Part shown: piece by piece, positions 2,098-20,705 of the stretch | How the letters are laid out: each line of letters opens with the position of its first letter | Numbering within the stretch: position 1 is the first letter of the stretch | The notes under the pieces: model-generated | Seen by the model: the letters and a program-made list of their open reading frames with translations, nothing else | What the model was told of the DNA's origin: nothing | The model's database searches: none | Source of the DNA: a virus | DNA: 24,388 bases | Strand: one strand, 5' to 3' | Virus record (IMG/VR): IMGVR_UViG_3300021178_000042 | Coordinates: 1-24,388 of that record | Position numbers and translations under genes: made by a program

Positions 2098-2913
2098 ATG
2101 CCAATCAGCAAGATCTGCCCTCAATGTGGAACTGAATTTTCGGTAAAGCCGAGTCATGTTCAGCAGCGTTTTTGCAGCAAAACGTGCGTAACCGCGCACG
2201 AACAAATTCACGGCCGCGTTGCTGCGCAAGTACCGTTGATCGACTTCAACTGCAAAGAATGCGGCAAGGTTTTTTCGTACAAACCATCCGCCGTGAAAGT
2301 CTATCAAAAGAGGTACAGCAAAGATCCGATGTATTGCAGCATGCCGTGTTCTGACCTCGGCAGACGAAAAGACACGATGGAACGTCAACGTTTCACCTGT
2401 CTTCAGTGCGGAAAAGAGCAAAGCCGCCGCCGAATTCCAATCGGGCGGATTTATACTCAACAAAAATTTTGTAACCGAGCCTGCAAAGCTGCTCATCAGC
2501 GCCAAACCGCACTCACGCGATTTGAACAAGAAGGCCCGACAACGCGCCACATTAAGCGTCACGGATATGCGTGGGTTTCGATACCTAGCCTTGTCACTGG
2601 CGTAAAACATGCGGTGCTTGAACATCGATATGTCATGTCCAAGCATCTCAGACGTGAACTGCTCTCTGAAGAAACCGTTCACCACATTAACGGCGACCGG
2701 AAAAACAATGATATTAGTAACCTCGAGCTTTTCTCCAGCCGCCACGGTCCCGGTCAGCGCGTCGTCGACAAAGTCAACTTTGCTATCGAGATACTGAAGC
2801 TGTACCCCGAGTTCGCCGCCGCGCGTGGCTATCGTATGATTCCCATCCACCCGATTACCGACGCCCCGGTTGCCCTCGAAGCTCGCCAAGCGCTTCCCCC
2901 GCCATCTTCATAA
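2098..2913 (+). CDS. HNH homing endonuclease with three zinc-finger modules
   Basis: The 271-residue protein has three CxxC...CxxxC modules (C7/C10/C26/C30, C52/C55/C80/C84, C101/C104/C125/C129), likely DNA-binding, followed by an HNH_3-type nuclease: HRYVMSKHL at 176-184, then VHHINGDRKNNDISNLELFS at 194-213 and H216. The His-His, Asn and His residues of the active site are all present, so it looks intact. It is on the strand opposite to the head genes, inserted between the scaffold-like and capsid genes. GAGG lies about ten bases before the ATG. The last 20 or so residues (Pro- and Ala-rich) are read antisense to the end of the scaffold-like gene and look like a run-on tail rather than conserved domain. 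It probably spreads itself into phages lacking the insertion. Confidence 0.88.
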   Translation: MPISKICPQCGTEFSVKPSHVQQRFCSKTCVTAHEQIHGRVAAQVPLIDFNCKECGKVFSYKPSAVKVYQKRYSKDPMYCSMPCSDLGRRKDTMERQRFTCLQCGKEQSRRRIPIGRIYTQQKFCNRACKAAHQRQTALTRFEQEGPTTRHIKRHGYAWVSIPSLVTGVKHAVLEHRYVMSKHLRRELLSEETVHHINGDRKNNDISNLELFSSRHGPGQRVVDKVNFAIEILKLYPEFAAARGYRMIPIHPITDAPVALEARQALPPPSS

Positions 2914-12267: not shown

Positions 12268-12288
12268 GCACACTATGCTATAGTGTGC
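12268..12288. promoter_or_regulatory. Palindrome upstream of the recombinase gene
   Basis: GCACACTAT and ATAGTGTGC form perfect 9-bp arms around GCT. The site overlaps the stop codon of the gene before it and lies 21 bp upstream of the recombinase start. It has no T-run, so a terminator is less likely than an operator or a recombinase binding site. Related cores occur at 21015-21029 and 23356-23370. Confidence 0.6.
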
Positions 12289-12298
12289 GTGGCGTCAA
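12272..12298 (-). promoter_or_regulatory. Candidate promoter of the recombinase operon
   Basis: TTGACG (12298 to 12293) is a near-consensus -35, and CATAGT (12277 to 12272) is a fair -10, with 15 bases between, short for sigma-70. The -10 lies inside the palindrome, so a protein binding there could repress it. The expected start falls at the hairpin that precedes the recombinase ATG. Confidence 0.4.
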
Positions 12299-12770
12299 GT
12301 GCCGTTTTGGCCATATGCACGATCAGTTGATCCAGCGACTCGCCGTAAAACGGTGCCCAGGTCATGACGTGCTTGCCATACGCCTTGGCGAGATCGTCGA
12401 CGATCTGGGCAAGATTGCTCGTTCCATTGGGTTGGAAAATCGCGACATGCTTGCAGCCCTTCGCCGCTTCAAGAATACTCATGGTCATCTTCAGGGTCTG
12501 GACAATCCGTTGCAACTCGGTTGATTCTTGCGGCGGACTGGCGATTTGAAAAATCGCGGCAAATTTCTGCCAGTGGAAATAAGCGTAATAGTCCGAGGTG
12601 TTGGTCAGATCGAAGATGCTGTACTCATCGCCCGGTCGCTCATTGATCGGACCCGGCGGATACTTCAGATCGTAAACCGCGATCCAGGTTTTTGGCTCGA
12701 TCTTCCTGATCTCCTCGATCAGCCGCGCACCCATGCGCGAAGAGCCGCCACAAATCCCGATTTTCCTCAT
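12273..12770 (-). CDS. Small Rossmann-like protein (SDR/epimerase-like, truncated)
   Basis: The 165-residue protein begins MRKIGICGGSSRMGARLIEE, a beta-loop-alpha with a glycine-rich loop, followed by WIAVYDLKYPP with the acidic residue that usually ends strand beta-2 of NAD-binding folds, then FDLTNTSDYYAYFHW and IFQIASPP, as in nucleotide-sugar epimerases. The YxxxK catalytic pair and the C-terminal substrate domain are absent; family members are usually twice as long. It may be a reduced or non-catalytic protein. It is coupled to the 83-residue gene before it by an ATGA overlap, in a group with a glycosyltransferase, which fits a sugar-related role by inference. Confidence 0.6.
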   Translation of the reverse strand: MRKIGICGGSSRMGARLIEEIRKIEPKTWIAVYDLKYPPGPINERPGDEYSIFDLTNTSDYYAYFHWQKFAAIFQIASPPQESTELQRIVQTLKMTMSILEAAKGCKHVAIFQPNGTSNLAQIVDDLAKAYGKHVMTWAPFYGESLDQLIVHMAKTALDATHTIA

Positions 12771-18144: not shown

Positions 18145-18609
18145 TTACGCAATTCTGAGCAACGCGTTCGACGAGTTGTTGGTCGGCTGCACCAGCGTCA
18201 GCGTCCCCGACGTCACGGTTTGAGTGCCGCCAAAGCTGCCGACGTACACCGCCTGGTTCGATGCGCTCGAATTGTAGATGATGCAGCCCGAAGTGCTGAA
18301 ACTCGCCGATGTCCAGGATGGATTGACCGACCATTGCCAGAACGCCGTGGTGCCCGACGTCGTCGGCGTAATGTTCTGCGCCGCGGTCCAGGCAAATCCC
18401 CCGGTCGTGTACCCCGATCCGTTCGCCACCTCATCGGAGTTGCCGGTCAGGTTCGAGTAGTTCGTGGTTGCCGCACCATAGGTGCCGGTCGGCGAAGCAA
18501 TCCCGAGCGCCACCTTGAAGACGTTGCCGGTCGTCGCAGTGTAATTGTGGATCGCCTGCGGAAGCTCGGCTTTGGCTGAGGTAGGGAATGCGGTAGTGAA
18601 CCCCGCCAT
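18145..18609 (-). CDS. Phage virion protein, 154 aa
   Basis: The protein starts MAGFTTAFPTSAKAELPQAI and contains GNVFKVALGIA and SGYTTGGFAWT, then a Trp/Ser-rich beta region and a C-terminal TLVQPTNNSSNALLRIA. This combination is familiar from a common family of phage structural proteins of unknown precise role. It is almost entirely beta-strand and low in charge. The ATG follows the previous stop directly (TAAATG). A tail or head surface role is likely; a specific one is not known to me. Confidence 0.72.
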   Translation of the reverse strand: MAGFTTAFPTSAKAELPQAIHNYTATTGNVFKVALGIASPTGTYGAATTNYSNLTGNSDEVANGSGYTTGGFAWTAAQNITPTTSGTTAFWQWSVNPSWTSASFSTSGCIIYNSSASNQAVYVGSFGGTQTVTSGTLTLVQPTNNSSNALLRIA

Positions 18610-19051: not shown

Positions 19052-19156
19052 CTACATCACCGTCTCGCAGTCGTCTAGGTATGCAACAGGGACTTTTATC
19101 ACCTGCTCCGTCAGATCAACGCGATCCTTGGTGGAATAGGCGAAGGCGAGTTTCAA
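19052..19156 (-). pseudogene. Fossil joining GT2-like start to STELLO-like end
   Basis: The 34-codon ORF starts at TTG, overlapping the terminal TGA of the HNH remnant. The first 20 residues (MKLAFAYSTKDRVDLTEQVI) closely match the first 20 of the GT2-like protein at 13015-14253 (MKLALAYSTKDRIELTKETI). The last 14 (KVPVAYLDDCETVM) match the C-terminus of the STELLO-like protein at 19698-20705 (AAFAYLDDCESVL). So most of two glycosyltransferase genes was lost and the two ends were joined in frame. The ORF could still be translated, but has no catalytic part. Confidence 0.7.
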
Positions 19157-19218
19157 ACTATCCTCGCAAACTCGCCATGATGCACAATAGCAGCAGCGTG
19201 CCTCGCTTCTATAGCATC
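19153..19218 (-). other. Orphaned in-frame C-terminal part of the AP2 domain
   Basis: After the TAG stop of the endonuclease gene the same frame continues for 21 codons, DAIEARHAAAIVHHGEFARI, then TGA. These residues fit the missing end of an AP2 domain (an A-x-x-A-R helix followed by H-G-E-F-A). Only a single stop codon therefore separates it from the gene. Confidence 0.7.
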
Positions 19219-19698
19219 CTATTTTTTGGCAAATACCCCAAGCCAAAAACGTTTTTTGTTTGCGTTCAAATAAGCTCGCCATCGTCCTTGATAAAATGAA
19301 ACGCCCTTTACTCCGCTGGTACTGTTTATACGAAATTGTTTTGTGTTCGCCATGTTCTGAGCATGAGTAGCAGCGCGTAAATTATTCCACCGATTATTTG
19401 ACGGATCTCCATCTCGATGCTCCGGATTAAGTATTGGATCTTTACCAGTTATGATTTTCCACGCTACGCGATGCGCTGAATATTTCACCAAATTAATTCT
19501 AGAAAATAGATGCCCGCTTGTATTCGCGGATGTAAACGCACGCTTTCCAGCCCACTTCTTATTGAAACAAAGCCAAGCTGCGCGACTGTTAAAATGTTTT
19601 CGCGGGCGCATTTTCCAAAAGAAAATGCCATTCAGTTCCTGATAATAAAAACACTCTAGCAAATATTTTCGAGATGGAAGTTTCTTTGCCGGCATCAT
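19219..19698 (-). CDS. HNH-AP2 homing endonuclease cut short by an amber codon
   Basis: The 159-residue product has an HNH_3-type nuclease with H76, then PEHRDGDPSNNRWNNLRA at 92-109 (His94, Asp96, Asn101/102, Asn106), followed by an AP2 DNA-binding domain beginning INSTSGVKGVSFYQGRWRAY. The AP2 domain is cut by TAG after LGVFAKK; its remaining residues follow in frame (see 19153-19218). The nuclease part is intact but DNA recognition may be lost. The start ATG overlaps the stop of the upstream glycosyltransferase as TGATG. The gene is A/T-rich compared with its neighbours, a sign of recent arrival. Other genes here end in TAG, so reassigned TAG is unlikely. Confidence 0.85.
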   Translation of the reverse strand: MMPAKKLPSRKYLLECFYYQELNGIFFWKMRPRKHFNSRAAWLCFNKKWAGKRAFTSANTSGHLFSRINLVKYSAHRVAWKIITGKDPILNPEHRDGDPSNNRWNNLRAATHAQNMANTKQFRINSTSGVKGVSFYQGRWRAYLNANKKRFWLGVFAKK

Positions 19699-20705
19699 CA
19701 CAAAACCGATTCACAGTCGTCGAGATAAGCAAAAGCTGCACTCACAGTGCGCTCCGGTACCCATGGAGTGTGTGCTAACAAATCCCAAATTCTACGACAG
19801 TCTTCTACTACTGATTTCCCGAGAAGAGGTAATTCATCCAAAAGCCTGGTTAACTTTATTACTTGGTCATATCCGTCGAGCTCGGCACGTAAATCCTTGA
19901 CGAGATCGTGAGCGTTGCGCTGCTGCACAACGAAGGGTTTACCGAGATGTACACAATAATTCCGCTCGCGCATGACGCGCTGAACCACGAGGCTAGCGTA
20001 GATATCATCATGGCGCCCAACTCCCGGCCACATGAACCAGGCCGGCAGGAACTCGCGCAGGATCGCTGTGTTCTGGCTGTTGAAAACCGTCCAGGTCTGG
20101 TGATGCGCGACAATCCCGTTCTCGACCAGCTGCGACACCTGCTGGACATCCGGCGCATTCACCATTCGCGTCGTCGCATCAATGTCGGGATCCCCGAGAC
20201 ACATGCCGGCGGCGACGCCAACCTTTGCGCCAACGATCGGTTGGTAAACCGCCTCATGCGTCACACTGTTCGGAAAGCCGCGATGCTTTGCAGGTGGTCG
20301 CAGATACTGGCCGGGATCGATCCAGTGATATTCTCCTCGCGCGCCAACTCCATCAAACCGACCTTCCAGCACAGCCCTTAAATCCTTGAAAAACGAAAGA
20401 GCGTGCAAAGGAATATTGTCGTCATCGATGCTGAGCACCGCGCTAGCACCCCACTTCAATGCCTCGAGGAAACCAATGTTGCGCCGCTGAATACAATTGA
20501 AGCCGATCAGCTCCGAACACTTCCACTGATGTCCTGATTCCGGCATCGAGATTTGAGTGTTGTCCAGGGTCAGCGCAAACTCGTACGCTTCCTTCGGGGT
20601 CTTCCTGTCGCCGACAACGAAAAACCGGACATCCGTGGTACACGCCCGATAAAGCTTCAGGACGTGCGGAACGTTGATCGTTGTAGTGACGAGTGCGAAT
20701 TTCAC
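19698..20705 (-). CDS. STELLO-type glycosyltransferase
   Basis: The 335-residue protein begins MKFALVTTTINVPHVLKLYR and has VGDRKTP near 31, KCSELIGFNCIQRRNIGFLEAL near 62-83 (shown in part), and SIDDDNIPLHAL at 92-103 with the DxD-like metal-binding residues. This set (V-x-x-T-T-I-N ... D-R-K-T-P ... R-R-N-x-G ... D-D-D-N) is that of the STELLO/DUF288 glycosyltransferases. Family members transfer sugar in diverse loci, and phage copies are near virion genes. GTG is the start, overlapping the stop of the RHH-like gene. Its C-terminal AYLDDCESVL tail recurs in the fossil at 19052-19156. Donor and acceptor sugars are unknown. Confidence 0.8.
   Translation of the reverse strand: MKFALVTTTINVPHVLKLYRACTTDVRFFVVGDRKTPKEAYEFALTLDNTQISMPESGHQWKCSELIGFNCIQRRNIGFLEALKWGASAVLSIDDDNIPLHALSFFKDLRAVLEGRFDGVGARGEYHWIDPGQYLRPPAKHRGFPNSVTHEAVYQPIVGAKVGVAAGMCLGDPDIDATTRMVNAPDVQQVSQLVENGIVAHHQTWTVFNSQNTAILREFLPAWFMWPGVGRHDDIYASLVVQRVMRERNYCVHLGKPFVVQQRNAHDLVKDLRAELDGYDQVIKLTRLLDELPLLGKSVVEDCRRIWDLLAHTPWVPERTVSAAFAYLDDCESVL

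Follow-up and report, generated by a model that had tools for sequence, protein, structure and literature searches.

The window, i.e., the whole stretch of 24,388 nt analysed here (IMG/VR virus record IMGVR_UViG_3300021178_000042), carries on its minus strand (i) a resident STELLO/RGP-like glycosyltransferase gene (20705-19698), hereafter STELLO, (ii) an HNH gene (19701-19219) overlapping the STELLO stop, (iii) a 34-codon ORF (19156-19052), hereafter the fossil, whose tail has its source in the STELLO family, (iv) a block of six genes (19026-14250), encoding proteins of 138, 154, 159, 634, 171, and 320 aa, and (v) an intact GT2-like gene (14253-13015), hereafter GT2, whose start codon overlaps with the stop codon of the last gene of the block (320 aa). 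GT2 is followed by genes for a short epimerase-like protein, a recombinase, and a TPR protein, and then by terL. The epimerase-like gene (12273-12770, minus strand) encodes 165 aa matching the first ~77-104 residues of an epimerase of ~334 aa (L001 and others, relatives being designated by L numbers) and is likely truncated.

The resident STELLO-like protein scores 25.3 bits against the Pfam family RGP (cut-off 23.8) and 24.8 bits against the Pfam family STELLO (cut-off 27.8), and is related to both, at best as a putative member; its relatives in the PDB comprise 7yua, 7xpr, and 7xpu (E ~1e-40). For the GT2-like protein, no sequence match was found in Pfam, PHROGs or the PDB; its AlphaFold model (pLDDT 88) finds structural matches in GnT-I and SpsA (E ~1e-7) and, judging from this model, the protein is a glycosyltransferase of GT-A fold. 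No relative of GT2 was recovered from cellular genome contigs, where a cellular or prophage source was sought. Regarding the six-gene block, it is missing from the corresponding place in all relatives examined, and its 154-, 634-, and 320-aa proteins find no match in the searched records of relatives. As to its source, the 138- and 634-aa proteins have no phage match, and the 154-aa protein (18145-18609, minus strand) is the only one with distant phage relatives, matching at 51% gp59 of Roseobacter phage CRP-603, which is encoded between the coat protein and tail fibre genes; from this likeness, the block is probably structural.

The fossil starts with a TTG at 19156, encodes the peptide LKLAFAYSTKDRVDLTEQVIKVPVAYLDDCETVM, and ends with a TAG stop (19052-19054). 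It is composed of a GT2 head (~19091-19156, codons 1 to ~22) and, fused in frame, a STELLO tail with its stop (~19052-19090, the last 10-12 codons). Position-specific matrices were built for GT2 starts and for STELLO ends, using the window and 30 relatives but not the fossil. With the GT2-start matrix, the fossil head scores 50.7 bits, the next-best place in the window besides the true GT2 start reaching -2.7 bits (29,234 six-frame positions). With the STELLO-end matrix, the fossil tail scores 20.6 bits, the next-best place besides the true STELLO end reaching 11.4 (36,793 positions), or 5.1 when a stop is required after it (873 positions), and the stop of the tail aligns with the STELLO stop position. 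The best breakpoint falls between codons 22 and 25 (~19082-19091). The view of the first-pass annotation that this ORF joins a GT2 start to a STELLO end is thereby borne out far above chance, a chimaera model scoring 79.8 bits vs 53.0 for GT2 alone, which rules out the tail as a mere continuation of GT2. The head shares 13/21 aa and 40/60 nt with the resident GT2, and the tail 8/11 aa and 25/36 nt with the resident STELLO, which is the nearest match to the tail; the halves being only partly identical to the resident genes, the fossil is not a recent copy of either. Since the head is nearer to GT2 starts of other phages (16/21 aa in L022, 46/63 nt in L020) than to the resident GT2, the label of paralogue initially given to its source is unsupported.

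The HNH gene of the window matches PF13392 (47.2 bits, cut-off 24.8) and phrog_99 (1e-43). An in-frame TAG (19219-19221) ends it ~21 codons before the family end. Past this TAG, the frame runs for 21 codons matching the C-terminal end of related HNH genes, and this former 3' end (19153-19218, minus strand), which reads DAIEARHAAAIVHHGEFARIV and then TGA, overlaps the TTG start of the fossil, across which GEFARIV-stop can still be read. Recoding of the TAG as the cause of the HNH stop was ruled out, as TAG terminates the portal gene and other genes of the window; being an ordinary stop there, it probably leaves a truncated HNH nuclease. Considering its domain together with the occupied and empty alleles met among relatives, the HNH gene would be of the free-standing homing type, its cutting activity being predicted. 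A perfect 9-bp inverted repeat (GGCGAGTTT...AAACTCGCC; 19145-19176, minus strand) lies across the fossil start codon and may be a product of chance, its first arm being in the old HNH end.

Relatives were gathered stepwise, from one close STELLO relative to 12 by a two-member alignment, then 30 and finally 45 by GT2 alignments. In 44/45 of these related IMG/VR records, STELLO precedes GT2, within ~1 kb upstream, and the recombinase, TPR protein, and terL come after GT2 in most of them. At least nine relatives have an HNH gene standing alone precisely at the STELLO-GT2 junction, whereas most others lack it; its presence at this same junction upholds the earlier suggestion that the locus is a hot spot of recombination next to an HNH gene of homing type. 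In each of the eight HNH-bearing junctions displayed, the HNH gene (its end mostly reading ..GEFA..) extends over the start of GT2, which puts the GT2 half of the fossil in its proper place. As the HNH frame of the window continues to its TGA over the TTG of the fossil, the HNH gene and the GT2 head correspond to the ordinary arrangement of HNH-bearing phages; what is unusual in the window is that GT2 breaks off at ~22 codons and is followed by a STELLO end, the block, and then the intact GT2. No second copy of STELLO or GT2 was found at the locus in any of the 45 records, and 11 records searched whole contain one STELLO each, the six with GT2 having one GT2. The proposals of the first-pass annotation that second full copies of both genes were lost with more than 2 kb of DNA, and that the locus once had a larger, duplicated glycosyltransferase set, find no backing in these counts; the full GT2-STELLO pair it suggested looking for in related phages was not found at the locus, and GT2-then-STELLO as a former gene order is at odds with the order in relatives, a single join being sufficient to produce it. 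Among HNH-less relatives, a small ORF separates STELLO from GT2 in L048 and L040. A different, HNH/AP2-like ORF occupies this place in L021 (5442-5924), and an HNH gene lies just upstream of STELLO in L046 (4381-4767); the STELLO-GT2 cassette seems to attract several nuclease types.

A matrix scan revealed one further fusion ORF, in L032 (IMGVR_UViG_3300021180_000318), a distantly related phage from another sample, where the order is STELLO (986-2050), HNH (2047-2553), fusion ORF (2550-2663), a 75-aa ORF, and GT2. This fusion ORF encodes 37 aa, namely MNKIALAFLTKDRVELSKRTIVPL (GT2 head) followed by GLAWCDDCDEAMK (STELLO tail), its start and stop overlap the neighbouring genes, and its junction is within one or two codons of that of the window scar in both genes. 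Compared in 60-column steps, the STELLO gene of L032 is 92-100% identical to that of the HNH-less L048 at nt 1046-1677, with 82-83% over nt 1678-1797; over nt 1798-1971, its identity to the HNH-bearing L039 is 100% while L048 drops from 97% to 59%, and in the last step L039 and L041 stand at 70-74% vs 59% for L048. The displaced tail of L032 shares 38/42 nt with the STELLO end of L030 and 35/42 with that of L040, but just 15/39 with the STELLO end that L032 now has. A contiguous match to L041 (72.6%) runs in L032 from the end of HNH to within the stub head, and the L032 tail with the start of the next ORF matches the STELLO end and next gene start of L048 (78.6%), the 75-aa ORF being placed like the small ORF between STELLO and GT2 in L048 and L040. 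On these sequence comparisons, the STELLO end of L032 is a replaced one, of the type of HNH-bearing phages, and the original end is displaced downstream behind a GT2 head; only gene ends would be duplicated here, and whole genes need not have been. The join (CCGTTG, then GGTCTTGC) presents a possible TTG microhomology when L030 is taken as proxy recipient. In the stub head, the last 39 nt are identical to the phage's own GT2 and the first 30 match at 18/30.

The HNH genes of the window and L032 are ~30% identical, and the stub head and tail of the window resemble the GT2 and STELLO of its own branch, those of L032 likewise. The two scars are apparently independent on this basis; alternatively, gene conversion may have kept one ancient scar matched to the resident genes. 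The first-pass annotation considered that its reading would fall if relatives carried the fossil as a conserved stand-alone peptide: the 37-aa ORF of L032 does so in form but not in substance, since it is built from the GT2 and STELLO of its own lineage, which makes it a second scar. A conserved peptide was also rejected for lack of any counterpart in the other relatives scanned. The patterns AYSTKDR and AYLDDCE retrieved five viral contigs, none in the STELLO-GT2 set; the one inspected, L049, has a chance AYLDDCE within an unrelated frame. Scars were counted in 2/10 HNH-bearing vs 0/34 HNH-less records (p 0.048), an association that is not relied on here, the cases being too few and the HNH-like ORF of L021 being missed by the count.

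The fossil is probably the scar of HNH homing with one-sided illegitimate repair rather than the remnant of two whole genes. The donor phage would have possessed STELLO-HNH-GT2, and the recipient phage STELLO, an unrelated insert (the six-gene block in the case of the window), and GT2. The HNH nuclease would cut the recipient close to the STELLO end. The left broken end would then be repaired through STELLO homology, with the donor serving as template for the end of STELLO, for the HNH gene, and for the first ~22 GT2 codons. On the right side, the recipient having unrelated genes between STELLO and GT2, there would be no adjacent homology and the new end would be joined illegitimately to the other broken end, i.e., the one carrying the recipient's last ~12 STELLO codons, the stop, and the six-gene block. 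The GT2-before-STELLO order of the fossil would stem from this single join of an HNH-bearing cassette to a STELLO end not followed by GT2. Where the cut fell, which phage was the donor, and that one event sufficed are all inferred. Homing is supported by the anatomy of the scars, by the gene order STELLO-HNH-GT2 kept among relatives, and, in L032, by one STELLO end being replaced and another displaced; both scars have the HNH gene on the left and, on the right, a GT2 separated from the STELLO end by unrelated DNA. For the window itself, the account is drawn by analogy with L032; against it, the STELLO end of the window is the one nearest to the fossil tail, so that no replaced end is seen there. 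In L032, the mosaic stub head (39 nt as in its own GT2, 30 nt not) would call for an extra template switch or a later gene conversion.

That mosaic head would be explained by two steps, namely a short tandem duplication from GT2 codon ~23 back to the STELLO end, again duplicating gene ends alone, followed by two-sided HNH homing into the first copy of the junction; the 30 nt unlike and the 39 nt identical to the phage's own GT2 then have their explanation, and in phage T6 the tandem amplification of segments, with microhomology, has been linked to a homing endonuclease (PMC13096335). Such a course nonetheless requires that two events struck one place, and did so in both phages; the duplication without HNH is seen in no relative, and this course is considered unlikely. 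The deletion put forward initially, where a second full GT2-STELLO pair lost over 2 kb and had its ends fused, would yield the same join and fits the difference of both halves from the resident genes; with no relative harbouring second copies at the locus, and with deletion having to occur twice with nearly identical end points, it appears improbable. Slightly less probable again is that the fossil has been retained as a small protein or serves as a translational bridge coupling HNH to the next gene: the frame is open in both cases (~1 in 9 by chance) and the L032 ORF overlaps its neighbours at both ends, but the two peptides track the genes of their own lineages and not each other, the window exhibits a TTG start, an early-ending HNH frame, and a gap before the next gene, and the other HNH-bearing relatives scanned lack the fusion ORF. 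A misjoining of two cassettes during assembly is conceivable in a metagenome contig and is hardly credible here, the same anatomy being found in an independent contig from another sample and the fossil halves not being copies of the resident genes.

Homing with one-sided illegitimate repair, the preferred reading, resembles known processes and the scar would be a variation on one-sided homing and gene-end replacement. In atp6 of Allomyces macrogynus, and in atp6, atp9, cox2, and nad3 of Glomus, mobile endonuclease ORFs bring a replacement gene end (PMC3630166). The likeness, i.e., a new 3' gene end, an endonuclease gene, and a displaced native end, holds at sequence level in L032 and partly in the window: a displaced native STELLO end is present downstream of the endonuclease in both phages, and in L032 the host gene carries an in-frame replacement end of foreign origin. 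The fungal elements are, however, mitochondrial and of the LAGLIDADG or GIY-YIG type, whereas an HNH gene in phages is concerned here, and the displaced end is here joined on to the start of the neighbouring gene. In phage T4, one-sided illegitimate intron homing with microhomology junctions is documented (PMC2988022); as there, homology would exist on one side of the break only and the other junction may involve microhomology (the possible TTG of L032), but here a free-standing HNH gene lies between two genes of natural phages, whereas T4 homing concerns an intron and crosses made in the laboratory. At the borders of exchanged modules, free-standing homing endonucleases are described in ICP1 and other phages (PMC10448857), as are HNH genes in Skunavirus (PMC12724721); in the parts of these reports considered, an HNH gene is likewise variably present at one site adjoining an exchanged module, and no displaced gene end beside the nuclease was found for them in the open-access literature, an earlier phage report being possible. 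As for SegB of phage T6, a homing endonuclease linked to tandem duplication junctions with microhomology (PMC13096335), whole tRNA-segB units are amplified under selection, unlike the single fused pair of gene ends described here.

Two apparently independent scars with near-identical end points predict where an HNH nuclease of uncharacterised type cuts. They also suggest a natural occurrence of illegitimate homing repair, which is familiar from laboratory crosses of T4. Such repair would leave short in-frame fusions that would otherwise be taken for small genes or traces of lost paralogues. At a recurrent site, homing can alter how a glycosyltransferase gene ends and can mark the place of entry of foreign modules. 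A bolder and rather doubtful proposition is that HNH elements at the STELLO-GT2 border cut in the last ~12-14 STELLO codons and carry a divergent, cut-resistant STELLO end, homing repeatedly swapping the C-terminus of the glycosyltransferase and failed right-hand repair, in recipients where GT2 is not adjacent, leaving a fusion that records the cut site. If this is true, metagenomes could reveal where uncharacterised phage nucleases cut in vivo.

An AT-rich tract (19100-19925) spans the HNH gene together with the final ~225 nt of STELLO, and might conceivably be an imported segment. GC3 falls from 0.66 to 0.43 toward the STELLO end of the window, with similar dips elsewhere and a boundary chosen post hoc; the last 45 residues of the window STELLO are 62% like those of the HNH-bearing L025, whose HNH is also the nearest (50%); both features would be compatible with an imported end. 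Co-conversion of flanking sequence, clear in L032, may on these two signs have occurred in the window. As a general sign of HNH presence, the GC3 shift was set aside as weak (HNH-bearing vs HNH-less, p 0.04 for STELLO ends and 1.0 for GT2 starts). AT-rich STELLO ends or GT2 starts also occur at the STELLO-GT2 border of L033, L034, L021, L030, and L044; in L033 and L034, where no HNH gene was detected, they are possibly traces of past homing. Elsewhere in the window, two more ORFs judged by eye to be of HNH type (355-1017 and 2098-2913, plus strand) flank the capsid and scaffold genes, on the opposite strand to these.
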